A stretch of DNA of 47,781 bases from Glycomyces sp. L485. GTDB lineage: Bacteria; Actinomycetota; Actinomycetes; Mycobacteriales; Micromonosporaceae. The stretch is from NCBI RefSeq assembly GCF_022548875.1, contig NZ_JAKZEW010000036.1:273-48053 (forward strand), in the 5' to 3' direction. Under the pieces are notes generated by a model that was given only the letters and a program-made list of their open reading frames with translations, did not search any database and was not told the DNA's origin. The position numbers and the translations under genes were made by a program. Below are positions 6,291 to 14,835 of this stretch, one piece after another; within the stretch, counting starts at the first letter, position 1; each line of letters starts with the position of its first letter.

Positions 6291-6977
6291 TTGGAAGACA
6301 TCGTCGCCGGCGACCCGGACTGGAGCACCCGGAACGCCACGCCTCCGCCTCGGTGGGCCCTGGCTTGGCGCCCGTTCGGATACCTGCTGGTCGGCCTGGT
6401 CTGGCTGGCAATCTGGGCGACCATCTTCGCTTTGGGCTGGGGGATATTGATCTTCGGCGTCGTATCGGGTGAACTCACGGTCGCCGTGTTCACCGAACCC
6501 TCCATGTCGTCGGTGGGCTCCGTCCTTGCGATGGTCTTCCTCGTGGCCCCGCTGCTGGCCGTGATCATGGGCCCTGTCGTGCTGTGGTGGCTGCCGAACT
6601 GCTCCTGGCCTCTCGCGGCACTGTCGTTCGTCTACATCGGCCGGTCCTTGCGTCCGTCCTTCCGCCACGAGAAACTGTCGTTCACCGCCTATGGCGATCA
6701 GGCCGACACGTTCGGTCGGCCCACGGTCTCGGGAACCTCGCTCTCGCTGCAGCCGGTGCGCAATACGGCGCTGACCCGTTTCCTCATGCGCTTCTATGTG
6801 GCCGGCTGGGAGCCCAGCGGCATCGGATTCCTCGCGATGATGCCCGCGGGGGTCGGCTGGCTGCTGCTCTTCCCCGCCATCGCGAAGGACGTCGCCCTGA
6901 CTACGAGCGTCGTGTGCGGCGTGCTCGGGGTCGGATTGATCGCATGGTCGTACGTATGGGCGCTGCGGACCATGTGA
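6291..6977 (+). CDS. polytopic membrane protein of the M48 unit
   Basis: A 228-aa protein with about five membrane segments (near residues 28-60, 75-115, 175-195 and 200-222). A cytoplasmic or outer loop of some 60 polar residues lies between the second and third clusters. It starts with TTG at 6291, 7 bp after the previous stop; no other start in this frame keeps the N-terminal MEDIVAGDPDW text. No known family was recognised. Close spacing places it in the same operon as the M48 peptidase and the helical protein. Confidence 0.7.
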   Translation: MEDIVAGDPDWSTRNATPPPRWALAWRPFGYLLVGLVWLAIWATIFALGWGILIFGVVSGELTVAVFTEPSMSSVGSVLAMVFLVAPLLAVIMGPVVLWWLPNCSWPLAALSFVYIGRSLRPSFRHEKLSFTAYGDQADTFGRPTVSGTSLSLQPVRNTALTRFLMRFYVAGWEPSGIGFLAMMPAGVGWLLLFPAIAKDVALTTSVVCGVLGVGLIAWSYVWALRTM

Positions 6978-7045
6978 ACGCTCGCCAAAGACCGCCCACG
7001 GGTCAAGTAGGGCCGCTCCAGCACCCCTGCCTCAGAAAGGCGACC

Positions 7046-8646: not shown

Positions 8647-9726
8647 TCAGTCGTTCCGCAGTTCGGCGACCCGATCGTCGCCGGTCGCCTCGAACACCGC
8701 TTCGGCAGCGGCCGGGTTGCGGGACAAGGCTTCGAGCACGGCGTCGATGGCGTTGGTCGGCTCGTCGAGGGTGAGGTCGAACCAGAGAGGATCCTCGCCC
8801 TCGACGGTCCAGTCGCCGCCGTGCTCGATATCGAACTCGATGACCGCTGTCGCCACCGGAGTCAGGAAGTCCTCGTGGAAGTCGCCGAACCGCAGCAGCG
8901 GCGCCAGCACCGACCATCCGTAGACGGTCGGCCCCACCGTGTCGATCTCCCACTCGCCGCCATGGAAGTTGTTCAGATCCTCAGTGTGCTCGTCGTCCCG
9001 GCCGAGGACGGGTGAGCCGGCGTACTTCACCAACGGCACCTGCGACGAGCCGAGCTCGATGAAGCGGCTGGTGTACTCCTCGCCCAGGTGGTATTCAGGA
9101 TCGAGGATCAACTCGGTGTAGTTGCCTTCGTCGATCAGTGTTTCCCGGTCCGGGTTCGTCACGTGCGCGAGTCCGATCCCGAGCATTTCCTGTGCCTCCA
9201 CGGCGAAAGGAGGAGGTGTATCGGGGCCGTCGTCTGTTTCCCAGAACGTCCCACCGCAGTACCTGGTCGCGCCCAGCCCCCAACCGGTCACCAGCCCTTC
9301 GGCACCGAGCTCGTCGAAATATGCGGTTTCCAGATCGGCGGGAGCGGCCGGATTGTCGGGACCGTTGTGACCGGGGGTGTCGACGACCTCCATGAGCATG
9401 GCAGCGAACAAGGCTAGGCCGGGGTAGGTGCAGGACTGCCTTTCGAAAAGATCTTGGTTCGCTATCCTCACGTCGTCGGCGAGCACGGAGACCTCCTCGG
9501 CCGGACCCGAGTCGTACTCGGTCAGGCGGTCGGGCTCGTATTCTTCCAGCCTCGCGAGCCACTTCGATTCGGCGCCGACCCACGTGCCTTGACGGCAGAG
9601 GTCCCCGTCCACCGGCCACGGTGGCCTGGTCAGGAGGTAGAGGGCGGCCGGGGCGGCGATCAGGACGACCGCGACCGCGGCGATGACGAGTTTCGCTCTT
9701 CCGCTCAGGCTCTGAAGGGTTCCCAT
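8647..9726 (-). CDS. membrane-anchored extracellular protein resembling DUF6571-type proteins
   Basis: A 359-aa protein with one N-terminal anchor (KLVIAAVAVVLIAAPAALYLL, residues about 12-32) and an acidic external domain with six cysteines spread over it. The C-terminal text NAIDAVLEALSRNPAAAEAV recalls the D-P-V-x-A-x-L-E-A-L-x-x-N-P-x-A segment of DUF6571-like actinobacterial proteins, which often accompany WXG100/ESX-type secreted proteins. Those are longer after this segment, so this one may be truncated at its C-terminus. The product starts 7 bp after a 67-aa gene and is probably cotranscribed with it. Family naming is from memory and moderate at best. Confidence 0.65.
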   Translation of the reverse strand: MGTLQSLSGRAKLVIAAVAVVLIAAPAALYLLTRPPWPVDGDLCRQGTWVGAESKWLARLEEYEPDRLTEYDSGPAEEVSVLADDVRIANQDLFERQSCTYPGLALFAAMLMEVVDTPGHNGPDNPAAPADLETAYFDELGAEGLVTGWGLGATRYCGGTFWETDDGPDTPPPFAVEAQEMLGIGLAHVTNPDRETLIDEGNYTELILDPEYHLGEEYTSRFIELGSSQVPLVKYAGSPVLGRDDEHTEDLNNFHGGEWEIDTVGPTVYGWSVLAPLLRFGDFHEDFLTPVATAVIEFDIEHGGDWTVEGEDPLWFDLTLDEPTNAIDAVLEALSRNPAAAEAVFEATGDDRVAELRND

Positions 9727-9937: not shown

Positions 9938-10092
9938 GAAGTGGCCGGACGAGACCCGAGTGCGGCGATCGGGGCGGCCACCACCCGGTCGCCGAGGGGG
10001 AACGAGCGTGGGCCGGTATGAAGGACCGCGCCTCCGAGGAACCGGTCGCCGAGTTCATCGCGAAGCCACGCCAGATGGCGCGCCGATAATAA
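9934..10092 (-). pseudogene. C-terminal remnant of a DUF4143-type AAA ATPase
   Basis: The frame contains HLAWLRDELGDRFLGGAVLH followed by TGPRSFPLGDRVVAAPIAAL, which closely follows the end of actinobacterial ATP-binding proteins of the AAA_14/DUF4143 group. The ATPase domain and most of DUF4143 are missing; upstream text is unrelated. About 50 codons remain. Confidence 0.6.
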
Positions 10093-10215
10093 GGTGGGCG
10101 TTGCCGACCGCGGGACTCCGGTGCGACTTCCGGATCCGTTTTGTAAGCGATAGTTCGCCTTCGTGCCTCTCATTCCCCGGTCGGCACCCAGGCCCTTCGA
10201 AACCCGGACGCCCCA

Positions 10216-11670
10216 ATGGAACTCACAGCCGACCGCACCGCCGCAGAGGACGTGCTGCTGTTCGTCAACGCCGCGATCGCCTCGACCGGCCAGGGCGAGT
10301 TCCACTCCGATGCCGACGCGCAGCAGTGGTCCATGGAGTTCCTACACGAGTACATGCTCGTCAACTACCGGGACCTGTACGCGGCCACGCTCACGCTCGG
10401 CGTCAACGACCGCAATGCCGCCGCGATCATCATGCGGCTCTTGCAGAGCGGTCGCGACGCCAACCAGAACCAGCGCGTCGTCGAGGGCCGCCTCATCACC
10501 AAAGCGCTTGCCGAGCTGCCGACGCACCGGGTATACCACCTGTTCACCGCCCTGCGGAAGGCCCGGGTCAACAACCGGCGGACTCGCGCGATCATGCGCG
10601 AATGGCTCGTCGCACGCCCGGACCCGGCGTTCGAGGCCGTCAAGTACCGGTCCGCGTTCCTCGGCGCAATCCGTCACGCGCACATGAAGGTCGAGGACCT
10701 GCCCGGCGAGGAGCTGGACGCGTTTCTGTTCGGGCGGCATGCCGCGGGCCGCTTCGAGACTCCCCAGTTTGAAACCTGGCGGCGCGCCCATTTCGACCGG
10801 CGAGCCGTGTTCGAGCTGCCGTATACGGTGGCCGAGGGCTTCGCGGCCAAGCACCGCATCACTCGCGCCGAGTTCCTGGAGAAGATCGCGCCCCAGCTCA
10901 CCCGCGGCGAGCGGCTGCGGCTCCAGCGATCGGCCGCACGGGTCGGCGCGATCGGGGTGGCCGCTGACGTCGCCGACCTGTCGCGGATGTCGTTGACCCG
11001 CCTTGCTGCGTACGCGCTCGCGCTGCCGGTGGAGGAGCTGGAGCAGCGGCGCGTAGAGCTGACCGACGCCCTCCGTGCCGCGGCGCTGCGCGTGGCCGGT
11101 CTGCGTGCCGGGACGTGGGGGCGGGTCGCGGCGGTGCTCGACGACAGCTACTCGGCGAGTGGGTCGAGCGAGAAGCGGCGGCGGCCACTCGTCGTAGCGC
11201 TGGCGGCGCACTTCCTGTTGCAGGAGCTGGCCGCCGATTACAGCCCCTTGTGGCTTTCTGGCGACGTGGACCCGCTCATGGCCCGCGCCCGCGGCGTCAC
11301 CGCGCTCGGGGAGCGAATCCTGGACGGGCTCGAGAAGCGCCCCGATGCGCTTGTCGTGGTCTCCGACGGCTGGGACAACGCACCGGTCGGCATGGCCGCC
11401 GAAGTCCTGCGCGTCTGGGAGGATCGGCTCGACCCCGAGGGAAAGACCGCTGTGGCCCACCTGAACCCGGTGTTCGACGCCGCGGGGCTCCAGGCGCGCC
11501 GCCTCGCACCCACCACCCCCACAATCGGCATCCGCGACGCCGAAGACCTGCCCGAGCTCGTTGAGTTCGCCCGGTTCGCCACCGCCCGCACTGGGATCGC
11601 CGAGCTGCGAGCCCACATCGACTCGCGGGTCGAGCGCTGGCTCACCGAGGAGATACCGTGCACCGCTTGA
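10216..11670 (+). CDS. TROVE-like helical-repeat protein with C-terminal vWA domain
   Basis: A 484-aa soluble protein in two parts. Residues 1-290 form a series of amphipathic helices as in TROVE (Ro60) ring proteins, including NDRNAAAIIMRLLQSGRDAN and HLFTALRKARVNNRRTRAIM. Residues about 300-475 form a von Willebrand A domain with a complete metal site: DDSYS (Asp309-x-Ser311-x-Ser313), Thr362 and Asp384 in VVSDGWDN. Ro60-type proteins bind misfolded RNAs and Y RNAs and assist RNA turnover or repair. It overlaps the next gene by 13 bp, so the two are made together. It is flanked by transposon relics, consistent with lateral transfer. RNA binding is inferred from the family and has not been shown here. 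Confidence 0.75.
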   Translation: MELTADRTAAEDVLLFVNAAIASTGQGEFHSDADAQQWSMEFLHEYMLVNYRDLYAATLTLGVNDRNAAAIIMRLLQSGRDANQNQRVVEGRLITKALAELPTHRVYHLFTALRKARVNNRRTRAIMREWLVARPDPAFEAVKYRSAFLGAIRHAHMKVEDLPGEELDAFLFGRHAAGRFETPQFETWRRAHFDRRAVFELPYTVAEGFAAKHRITRAEFLEKIAPQLTRGERLRLQRSAARVGAIGVAADVADLSRMSLTRLAAYALALPVEELEQRRVELTDALRAAALRVAGLRAGTWGRVAAVLDDSYSASGSSEKRRRPLVVALAAHFLLQELAADYSPLWLSGDVDPLMARARGVTALGERILDGLEKRPDALVVVSDGWDNAPVGMAAEVLRVWEDRLDPEGKTAVAHLNPVFDAAGLQARRLAPTTPTIGIRDAEDLPELVEFARFATARTGIAELRAHIDSRVERWLTEEIPCTA

Positions 11671-12782
11671 CGTTCGACGGACTCCAGACCCGCCCCGGCC
11701 AAGTGTGGGGCGGGGTCCGGCTCGTACCGCTCGTCCGCGACGAGCCGATCTCGTCGCTGCGGCTGCACCCCAACGGGTTTCCCGACAACGACCCGTTCGG
11801 CGGGTACGAGCCGCGCTGCTGCTACGCGCCACACGGCTTGACCGCCGAGTGGACCGACGACGGCACCGCCGTGCCCGCACTCGGCACCGCACTGCGCATG
11901 CCCGCCAAGACCGTGCGCAAGTCCGGGCGACCAAAGACGAAACTCGAACGGCGCACCCGCGTGCGCTTCGTCCCGCACCAAACTGCACTCGAGGCCTTCC
12001 TACCGCTCACGTTCCAGGTTCCAACGATCGCCTGGCGCGAATGGTCGACCCGCGTGTTCCGCCGCGGCCTGCCGCGTTCGGAGGAGCCGCAGTACATCGG
12101 CTACGACGTTGAAGGGCTCGCCGATGCCCTGCGCATCTTCGAGATCCATCCTGGACAATGCGGCGTCCTGGTGTACATCGCCGACGCGCTCGCCTCAGCC
12201 GTCGTCACCCCGCACCCGGACGACTACCGGGCCCTGCACCCGACCCTCGTCGAGGACGGGTTCGGTGAGCTCATCTGGCGGTACACGCACCTGTACGAGG
12301 ACGTCCCGGACTTCCGCGTGCGGCTTCACGAGAGCTCGATCGACACCGTCGCCGACCTGCGCACGACAATCAGAGTCGCACAGCGGGAGTGGACCGACTT
12401 CCACGAGGACGCCATGGCCGGAGGACTTCTCGACGCTGAATACGTCTTCACCGGCGACTACCAGATGAACCAGTACACGCTCCGCCGGTTCCGGCCGCAC
12501 TTCGTGCCCGGCCGCGAGACCCACGTGGGCGAGGCGATCAGCGACGACAACGGCCGCCTCGCATACCTGCGGACGTTCCGCCTCTCAGAAACCCAGTCAC
12601 GACGGGGACGACTCCTGCGAACACTGTCGGACTACGACTGGAACGTGGAAGCCGCAGCCGCGAGCATGGGCATCGCAGCCCCAGCACTGGTCGCACGCGT
12701 CGACGCCGCCGGCTACGGAGGCCTCCTCCGCCAGGACGTGCTCGACCACTACCGCGCCATGAACTCCCGCTTCGGCACGTAA
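11658..12782 (+). CDS. ARPP-like protein with C-terminal Fis-type helix-turn-helix
   Basis: A 374-aa protein starting with GTG inside the end of the TROVE-like gene. The N-terminal part (about 8-300) has RPGQVWGGVRLVPLVRDEPI and further beta-rich text (GECGVLVYIADAL-like strand at 165-180, Cys54-Cys55, Cys168). It resembles the ARPP-type domains described with predicted RNA-repair gene sets, an assignment made from memory and uncertain. Residues about 316-352 (GRLLRTLSDYDWNVEAAAAS, then MGIAAPALVARVDAAGY) look like the Fis/NtrC DNA-binding helix-turn-helix. It could thus be both effector and regulator of the pair. No close alternative family was recognised. Confidence 0.65.
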   Translation: MHRLTFDGLQTRPGQVWGGVRLVPLVRDEPISSLRLHPNGFPDNDPFGGYEPRCCYAPHGLTAEWTDDGTAVPALGTALRMPAKTVRKSGRPKTKLERRTRVRFVPHQTALEAFLPLTFQVPTIAWREWSTRVFRRGLPRSEEPQYIGYDVEGLADALRIFEIHPGQCGVLVYIADALASAVVTPHPDDYRALHPTLVEDGFGELIWRYTHLYEDVPDFRVRLHESSIDTVADLRTTIRVAQREWTDFHEDAMAGGLLDAEYVFTGDYQMNQYTLRRFRPHFVPGRETHVGEAISDDNGRLAYLRTFRLSETQSRRGRLLRTLSDYDWNVEAAAASMGIAAPALVARVDAAGYGGLLRQDVLDHYRAMNSRFGT

Positions 12783-12886: not shown

Positions 12887-13348
12887 CTAGGGCTGGTTGC
12901 AACACTGCTGATAGATGCTGTTTTCGGTCAGGAGCTTAGCAAGGCGCTCGGCTGGGGTTTCCCAGCCGAGCGTTTTGCGTGGGCGGCCGTTGAGTTCGGC
13001 AGCGACGGCGGCGAGCCGTTCGCGGTCGTGGACGGACAGGTCGGTGCCTTTGGGGAAGTACTGGCGCAGCAGGCCGTTCGTGTTCTCGTTGGAGCCGCGT
13101 TGCCAGGGGCTGGCGGGGTCGCAGAAGTAGACGGGGATGTCGGTGGCGACGCTGAAGCCCTTGTGTTCTGCCATTTCGGAGCCGCGATCCCAGGTCAGTG
13201 ACTTCACCAGGTGGGCTGGGAGTGTGCGGACGGTGTCGATGAGCGCGTCGCGGACGCTAACGGCGTCGTGGCGGCCGGGCAGGTGCAGGAGCATTACGTA
13301 GCGGGTGGATCGTTCGACCAGGGTGCCGATCGCCGAGCCGTCCAACCC
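12887..13348 (-). pseudogene. IS30-family transposase, C-terminal half only
   Basis: The frame from 13348 reads GLDGSAIGTLVERSTRYVML and keeps the later catalytic parts: LTWDRGSEMAEHK (second Asp) and SPWQRGSNENTNGLLRQYFP (the conserved Glu). It then ends normally at LGWETPAERLAKLLTENSIY-QQCCNQP. The N-terminal DNA-binding region and the first catalytic Asp are missing. Upstream the sequence abuts an ISAs1-like fragment on the other strand. Confidence 0.85.
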
Positions 13349-13408
13349 TGACCTGCGCGATTTCATCCAGAACCACCTGACTCCTCCACCGTCCACGCCG
13401 GGAGCGCG

Positions 13409-13542
13409 CCCCGCGCGATGGCCGCCTTCAGAAACCTCGCCACCGGCGCCCTCAAAATCCTCGGCTCGAGCAACATCGTCAAGACCACCCGTGCAATCGG
13501 AGCCGAACCCGAACGAGCCCTTCCGATCCTGGGCATCACCCA
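13409..13542 (+). pseudogene. ISAs1-like transposase C-terminal fragment
   Basis: The text MAAFRNLATGALKILGSSNI, then RALPILGIT, follows the last helix of ISAs1-type transposases (the usual pattern is M-x-x-L-R-N-x-A-x-x-x-L-R). Only about 45 codons remain, with no matching catalytic region, and they are joined to the IS30 fragment. Confidence 0.5.
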
Positions 13543-13645
13543 TCAACCGAACCCTTCAGGAACCCGAAAAAGCCCTGCGCACCGGGCGCCGGCGGCAGCG
13601 TCTCCGGGCACGGGTTGATGCTCTCATCGCCAAGGACAGGATCTG

Positions 13646-14747: not shown

Positions 14748-14762
14748 ATAATGCTGGTCTTG

Positions 14763-14835
14763 CAGGGGTGACAGGACTTGAACCTGCAACCTACGGTTTT
14801 GGAGACCGTTGCGCTGCCAATTGCGCCACACCCCT
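14763..14835 (-). tRNA. tRNA-Trp (anticodon CCA)
   Basis: Read on the minus strand, acceptor arms AGGGGTG and CACCCCT pair perfectly. The anticodon stem-loop CGGTCTCCAAAACCG carries CCA, and the T arm has the TTCAAGT loop. The molecule is 73 nt with discriminator G, and 3' CCA is not encoded. It is the likely boundary of the accessory island. Confidence 0.95.

Follow-up and report, generated by a model that had tools for sequence, protein, structure and literature searches.

The actinobacterium Glycomyces sp. L485 carries, in the 47,781-nucleotide stretch of DNA analysed here (the window; positions 273 to 48,053 of contig NZ_JAKZEW010000036.1, forward strand), a short structured RNA followed by two overlapping genes. 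The three together probably represent a Ro-type ribonucleoprotein (RNP) module common to phages and bacteria, in which the RNA is joined by a protein that is likely to be a distant relative of TROVE/Ro60 and has a vWA domain (protein 1, encoded by gene 1) and by a protein of the ARPP family (protein 2, encoded by gene 2). Comparison of genomes, plasmids and viral contigs shows the three parts, their linkage, the structure of the RNA and the phage forms of the unit; we infer that the parts assemble into an RNP, that protein 1 binds the RNA, that the particle deals with tRNA damage and that the bacterial ARPP-2 protein has a regulatory role. On the forward strand of the window the order is a -10-like element, the RNA, gene 1 and gene 2:

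10090-10095, + strand: -10-like promoter element TAAGGT (TANNNT), upstream of the RNA stem
10103-10185, + strand: structured RNA of 83 nt with closing stem, conserved GGGACU/AUUCCC, mid stem and small hairpin; candidate Y-like RNA
10216-11670, + strand: gene 1, 484 aa; TROVE-like N-terminal region and vWA domain (metal site D309, S311, S313, T362, D384)
11658-12782, + strand: gene 2, 374 aa, GTG start; ARPP-2 domain (residues 5-270) and helical Fis-like C-terminus
12588-12773, + strand: four-helix, HTH_8-like C-terminal end of gene 2 (residues 311-372), based on HTH_8 in relatives and helices in the structure model; a gap in viral rows

Both open reading frames that the first-pass annotation of the window had reported are borne out, as is their overlap of 13 bp.

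Near-obligate pairing of gene 1 and ARPP-2

A scan of 84,980 species genomes for gene 1 yielded 134 relatives, of which the best 80 were analysed; their hosts include Glycomyces, Streptomyces, Actinomadura, Saccharothrix, Kibdelosporangium, Nannocystis, Nostoc, Thiomargarita, Parabeggiatoa and Sericytochromatia. An ARPP-2 gene, split between frames in a few cases, lies downstream of gene 1 in 79 of these 80 genome loci, and the sole exception (L086) is at a contig end. The linkage also holds in the reverse direction: ARPP-2 is matched in 47 of 295 genomes of one genus, and gene 1 is found upstream in all 30 of the best loci (in two frames in L131). Across the phylum ARPP-2 is matched in 7 of 396 genomes, 3 of them above the cut-off; five loci (L008-L012), comprising four weak matches from this phylum-wide search and one remnant, have no gene 1 beside them. 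The pairing of gene 1 with ARPP-2 is near-obligate. Far from occurring side by side only rarely, the homologues keep together from whichever gene the search begins, which supports the earlier proposal of a coupled two-gene unit made of a Ro-like vWA protein and an ARPP partner.

Among 79 pairs with clear ends (three Nostoc plasmids counted, starts chosen by script), 62 overlap by 4 bp. The trees of the two genes agree, with Mantel correlations of 0.96 for 98 loci and 0.85 for the 76 bacterial loci, compared with 0.24 and 0.25 for the best of 999 permutations. One locus (L047), from a record titled Rhodococcus rhodnii with a genome of 12.4 Mb, clusters with Kibdelosporangium in the tree of gene 1 and may come from a mislabelled assembly. 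The plasmid matches are the three Nostoc plasmids, on two of which XisH/XisI genes lie between gene 1 and ARPP-2 (L002 8454-9193; L003 8475-9214), with the RNA still in place.

A conserved structured RNA upstream of gene 1

The first-pass annotation stated that no Y-RNA gene adjoins the pair. This is contradicted by the conserved structured RNA at 10103-10185, which is encoded ahead of gene 1 at 83 of 84 loci (the window, 80 genome loci and three plasmids) in Actinomycetota, Cyanobacteriota, Nannocystis, sulfur bacteria and Sericytochromatia; the sole locus that lacks it, L090, has only 33 nt before the gene. In an alignment of 56 of the 83 RNAs, from which 27 similar ones were omitted, the 22 base pairs of the model are paired in 96.3% of cells, and 14 pairs and 67 cells have changed on both sides. 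None of 500 shuffles scored as high, and slid controls were 37-48% paired. The figures for 80 distinct rows (98.2% paired, 15 pairs and 203 cells with double changes) are biased towards the model, to which that alignment was fitted, and one of its rows is a reverse-strand artefact match in L072. A TANNNT -10 element lies 4-19 nt before the stem in all 83 loci, against a background of 3.5% in equally long upstream windows, and is of the extended type in 60 of them. Searches of Rfam gave no match over the element in the window, where the best hit at a lax threshold is a chance match on the other strand (E 4.4), and no match at all in nine relatives. The RNA family has no match in Rfam, its covariation is strong and its protein partner is near-constant. 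The idea of an RNA-centred system, already present in the first-pass annotation, is supported.

Searches that begin with the RNA give a consistent picture. The genome from which the window derives has one strong copy according to the covariance model (E 1e-14; next best E 0.68). Among the 295 genomes of one genus, the model finds the RNA in 45; RNA and ARPP-2 are both present in 43, ARPP-2 only in 4, the RNA only in 2 and neither in 246 (Fisher value 1.6e-44, which overstates the association because the genomes are related). The four genomes with ARPP-2 only have short partial ARPP-2 matches, and of the two with the RNA only, one retains pieces of both genes and the other has an ARPP fragment after the RNA. 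The RNA is upstream of ARPP-2 on the same contig and strand in all 41 genomes measured of the 43. Decayed copies of the unit (L178, L179 and L180) have a high-scoring RNA and fragmented protein genes.

In the order to which the L092 genome (a Nostoc) belongs, the RNA is present in 21 of 195 genomes. The 23 rows of this cyanobacterial survey reduce to 19 stretches, the other rows being a known locus, two places near contig ends and the second of two tandem copies. Gene 1 comes next after the RNA in 17 of the 19 places (truncated in one, in two frames in another), and the RNA is followed by both genes in 13, by part of ARPP only in one and by neither gene in one. The RNA thus tracks gene 1 more closely than ARPP, as would be expected of a Ro/Y-RNA pair.

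Protein 1 is a likely distant relative of TROVE/Ro60

The metal-site residues that the first-pass annotation read in the vWA domain are present as claimed and are strongly conserved: D309, S311, S313 and D384 in all 82 aligned relatives, and T362 in 81 of 82 (one T-to-S change). Searches of gene 1 against Pfam, NCBIfam, PADLOC, PDB sequences and PHROGs returned no usable family match; the only plausible Pfam models that the family touches are vWA models, weakly, and a viral relative touches a PHROG family annotated as 'RNA-binding protein' at E 0.016.

The gene-1 profile matches that of 17 actinobacterial TROVE proteins with p 8.8e-4, improving to 3.9e-5 when viral relatives are added to the query profile and to 1.5e-5 (probability 79%, over 187 columns) when 80 viral TROVE proteins are added to the target profile, whereas controls gave p 0.17 and 0.72 (reversed profile) and p 0.24 and 0.39 (ARPP profile). 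The vWA domain of protein 1 is in register with that of TROVE in the profile alignment. At a looser setting the co-linear alignment of the two profiles lengthens to 399 columns and begins near the N-terminus, where a Gly and, after it, a (Thr/Glu)-Phe-(Tyr/His) motif occur in both. Gene 1 is therefore likely to be homologous to TROVE/Ro60, at a distance that places it outside the Pfam family.

Protein 2 belongs to the ARPP family

Gene 2, for which an ARPP-like domain had been suggested, encodes ARPP-2 itself (Pfam PF22549, E 3.3e-102). The Fis-type DNA-binding end that had also been suggested receives support from relatives, 33 of 77 of which match HTH_8 at E<=1 (best 2e-4), and from the structure model of the protein, in which residues 311-372 form four helices with pLDDT 80-96 (66 in the last block), but the window protein itself has no HTH_8 match. 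The mean pLDDT of the model is 73.6, and it is poor across much of residues 41-160. This helical Fis-like C-terminus is present in the bacterial proteins and absent, as a gap, in the viral rows.

The partner proteins in viruses are of a different type: ARPP-1 (PF20208) is above the cut-off in all 11 that were scanned. Cys and Gln are described as absolutely conserved in ARPP and proposed to be catalytic in the part of the published account that treats this domain (PMC9503650). A Cys-(Val/Ile)-(Gln/Glu) motif is found in 22 of 22 aligned viral ARPPs, and none of 16 bacterial rows, the window included, has Cys at that place, in a region where the alignment is uncertain. Elsewhere in the 77 gene-2 members the only Cys column is C168 (64/77).

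Phage forms and candidate RNAs that enclose tRNAs

The pair also occurs in phages. An uncultured 462-kb phage (LR756500) encodes a gene-1 relative that is 22% identical, with an ARPP gene immediately after it. Scans of viral contigs added 30 loci and then 2 more, on contigs of up to 429 kb. ARPP lies downstream of gene 1 in 33 of 34 viral loci, a total that counts the LR756500 phage three times and includes other near-duplicates, and the sole miss (L166) is a contig end. In L142 the gene between the two (6565-7038) matches nucleoside 2-deoxyribosyltransferase (E 1.3e-19), and L143 has a homologue there; the stretches read contain 10 tRNA genes in L142 and 12 in L143. The 462-kb phage has a Macro-domain gene about 3.5 kb from the pair (L004 14075-14653, E 6e-7), and Macro and YAcAr domains each occur in 2 of 124 phage neighbour proteins scanned.

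Some phage elements upstream of the pair follow the same plan as the bacterial RNA: closing stem, G(A/G)ACU, mid stem, variable module, mid stem, closing stem. Searched with a descriptor of this plan over at most 700 nt upstream, 11 of 22 phage loci contain such an element; the control rates are 50 of 1100 for shuffles and 31 of 344 for other windows from these loci. The descriptor also recovers 71 of the 83 bacterial RNAs. It is a relaxed form of a stricter first descriptor, which was set aside because it matched 11 of 22 phage loci but none of the 83 bacterial RNAs.

In nine of the 22 viral loci the variable module appears to be a tRNA, up to about 2 kb from the pair. In a test for enclosure (GRAC motif, closing stem, mid stem), 11 of 74 phage tRNAs qualified; 19 of 1480 did so when their flanks were shuffled, as did 3 of 182 tRNAs close to classical viral TROVE genes. 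The cases in L145, L148, L153 and L155 prompted this test, and those in L149, L150, L152, L154 and L157 emerged from it. A looser version of the test is passed by 6 of 13 tRNAs located at most 700 nt upstream of gene 1 and by 6 of 61 others. Descriptor and enclosure test together cover L145, L148-L155, L157 and seven of the L160-L174 group, and find nothing in L142, L143, L159, L160 and L164. Rfam sees the enclosed phage RNAs as tRNA only (eight loci). The longest closing stems, with 22-24 Watson-Crick pairs and the GRAC motif, flank the phage tRNAs at L152 3980-4055 and 4325-4400 and at L154 3991-4063. These arrangements suggest that large phages wrap tRNAs inside Ro-type RNAs. No tRNA module was seen in the bacterial RNA, in which a small hairpin takes its place.

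Viral contigs often carry classical TROVE genes as well: one scan gave 125 relatives, of which 80 were examined (L203-L282). Unlike the pair described here, none of these 80 loci has an ARPP gene in the flanks of up to 3 kb on each side, and none was found in the flanks of about 1.5 kb of 19 actinobacterial TROVE loci.

Proposed working of the module and alternative explanations

In the proposed module, a dedicated promoter would produce a short folded RNA (10103-10185) beginning with its closing stem; the transcript would probably continue into both genes in most bacteria. Protein 1, TROVE/Ro60-like but divergent and with its vWA metal site intact, would bind the RNA through its stem as Ro60 does with Y RNA, and the RNA may gate the particle or aim it at misfolded or cleaved tRNA-like RNA, which would be captured as cargo. 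ARPP would act on this cargo or report it. Phage ARPP-1 may act on ribose ends; for bacterial ARPP-2, sensing the particle's state or reporting it, perhaps to the promoter, is likelier than a role as the same enzyme, because no Cys is present in that region and the protein ends in a Fis-like DNA-binding part, whereas ARPP-1 keeps Cys and Gln. In large phages, the whole tRNA that forms the variable part could be bait, decoy or template for tRNAs under attack. A bolder version of this proposal, which we regard as tentative, is that the unit is a distinct branch of Ro/Y-RNA systems: in phages, an RNA with a complete tRNA in its Ro-binding stem and an ARPP enzyme would shield, bait or mend tRNAs that are cut by host defences, and bacteria would have taken up the unit, swapped the tRNA for a small hairpin and made ARPP a DNA-binding reporter of RNA damage.

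Several results weigh against a Ro-type module shared by bacteria and phages. The Pfam TROVE model (PF05731) matches none of 82 members of the gene-1 family at E<=1 and nothing in the window's own genome. The first-pass annotation had read a Ro60-like helical ring from motifs; what is supported of its description is a Ro-like protein with a vWA domain. The firm part of the profile match comprises the vWA domain and the stretch before it, and the N-terminal part is aligned at low confidence. Gene 1 occurs without ARPP in the stretch at 4 of the 19 cyanobacterial RNA places. The bacterial covariance model finds no RNA in 31 phage loci with default filters, and its best match in seven phage loci without filters (E 0.23) is an ordinary tRNA; a common origin of the bacterial and phage RNAs would therefore rest on their shared plan and not on a score. 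Moreover, both descriptors of the phage RNA were written after some of the phage sequences had been read, and their hit rates are not blind. At 70 of the 83 bacterial loci, 0-60 nt separate the end of the RNA from the script-chosen start codon of gene 1 (median about 25 nt), 8 script-chosen starts fall within the RNA element, and a U-run directly follows the stem in L086 alone of the 83 loci, features that could belong to a leader.

Indeed, the RNA could be a cis-acting leader to which protein 1 or 2 attaches on its own mRNA, thereby repressing or activating the operon, with no free RNA to form an RNP. The short gap and the scarcity of U-runs would fit such a leader, as would the constant position upstream of ARPP-2 in the 41 genomes measured, yet we consider it unlikely. 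The RNA can stand apart from the genes: in L086 it has its own U-run and more than 200 nt separate it from gene 1, L185 has two tandem copies and L190 an orphan copy. Two Nostoc plasmids keep the RNA despite the XisH/XisI genes between the protein genes, and the tRNA-bearing phage forms may be about 2 kb away from the pair. That protein 1 is instead a vWA protein with an unrelated helical N-terminus, acting as an Mg-dependent peptide chaperone for ARPP while the RNA has some other role, appears more improbable still. It would account for the weak vWA matches as the sole plausible Pfam models, and such chaperones are reported, in the portion of PMC9503650 concerned, from systems that also hold ARPP; against it, the profile match extends past the vWA domain into the preceding TROVE region, the viral relative touches an RNA-binding PHROG, and the RNA stays with gene 1 where ARPP is absent.

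The unit might also be a selfish or defensive RNA-protein conflict cassette, in which the small RNA keeps an effector, protein 1 or ARPP, in check, much as happens in type III toxin-antitoxin systems. Its patchy spread (ARPP-2 in 47 of 295 genomes of one genus and in 7 of 396 across the phylum, 3 of them over the cut-off), its carriage on plasmids and phages, its decayed remnants and turned-over flanks, and the Macro, YAcAr and cREC domains among its phage neighbours are all in keeping with this, but neither protein is matched by PADLOC or contains a nuclease or toxin domain found by Pfam or NCBIfam, and the RNA is one structured element and not a repeat array. Furthermore, 83 loci have no shared neighbour family beyond local synteny and spurious GC-rich frames (from rough gene calls), and many of the phage neighbour families have ordinary phage functions. 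A conflict cassette thus seems to us a rather poor candidate, and a Ro-type module the probable one.

Relation to known systems

Ro biology is known mainly from animals, Deinococcus and Salmonella, and the plan of a Y RNA is a stem plus a module. The unit resembles the Ro60/Rsr and Y RNA systems of Deinococcus radiodurans and Salmonella (the rsr-yrlBA-rtcBA operon) in combining a Ro-like vWA protein with an adjoining structured RNA gene, and differs from them in that protein 1 lies beyond Pfam TROVE, an ARPP partner is present, RtcB is not adjacent and the RNA has no Rfam match. The phage RNAs that enclose tRNAs resemble bacterial Y RNAs such as YrlA, which, according to the relevant part of PMC7790460, has a tRNA-like domain suggested as a competitive inhibitor of a tRNA nuclease; the same source describes the tethering of Rsr to PNPase by Y RNA in Deinococcus. 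The ARPP domain is shared with ADP-ribosylglycohydrolase systems (Iyer, Burroughs and Aravind 2022, PMC9503650), and the phage partners here keep the Cys and Gln. In those systems, as far as the sections of that paper dealing with ARPP indicate, the partners are HIRAN, WYL and deacetylase proteins and not a TROVE-vWA gene or an RNA, and the bacterial ARPP-2 described here differs in having no such Cys. TROVE proteins of jumbo phages (ROT/TROVE, PMC7824862) are similar in being encoded by large phages and are described as a platform for RNA repair that in cells has a tRNA-like partner; the passages on ROT/TROVE in that account mention neither an ARPP partner nor a tRNA-enclosing RNA. The pair and the RNA were nowhere described in the literature searched, which comprised titles and the starts of abstracts with most subscription journals outside its coverage, so that their absence from print is not established.

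The unit adds an RNA family that Rfam does not match and that can be tested in Streptomyces and Nostoc, which are culturable. It connects Ro biology with ARPP, a second protein family of still hypothetical chemistry, and it makes the role of bacterial Y RNAs, including a possible part in dealing with attacks on tRNA, directly testable.

Genomic surroundings of the unit

The closest relatives of gene 1 are Glycomyces proteins (L014 at 92% identity). DNA identity among four Glycomyces copies sets in about 130 nt 5' of gene 1 and ends just before the gene 2 stop. The first-pass annotation had the pair standing alone between dead mobile elements. This holds on the downstream side, where an integrase (rve) fragment occupies 12887-13546 on the minus strand, but not upstream, where the neighbouring frame (8647-9726, 359 aa) is open and has no match in Pfam. 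Part of the integrase fragment (approximately 13384-13540) has several further matches in the Glycomyces luteolus genome.

A tRNA-Trp gene is located at 14762-14835 of the window, and three Glycomyces relatives have the unit and this tRNA region together on one contig, 7-45 kb apart, which indicates that the DNA between the unit and the tRNA has turned over. Hopping of the unit between sites in Glycomyces, a possibility that we had considered, was dropped in view of this arrangement. Accordingly, the earlier inference of movement by lateral transfer is not upheld for these genomes: carriage by plasmids and phages and patchiness are evident, but it is the flanks that have changed in the three relatives and not the unit, since the unit stays on the contig of the same tRNA-Trp region.

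The suggestion that the pair is a minimal form of an RtcB operon fares no better, as RtcB is encoded on a different contig of the genome (C46, the pair being on C12). RtcB was found in 32 of the 34 genomes with the pair that were searched, yet in 1 of the 16 viral records, and was rejected as a diagnostic partner. A small XRE-type HTH gene lies upstream of the unit in five loci and downstream in a sixth, according to rough gene calls.

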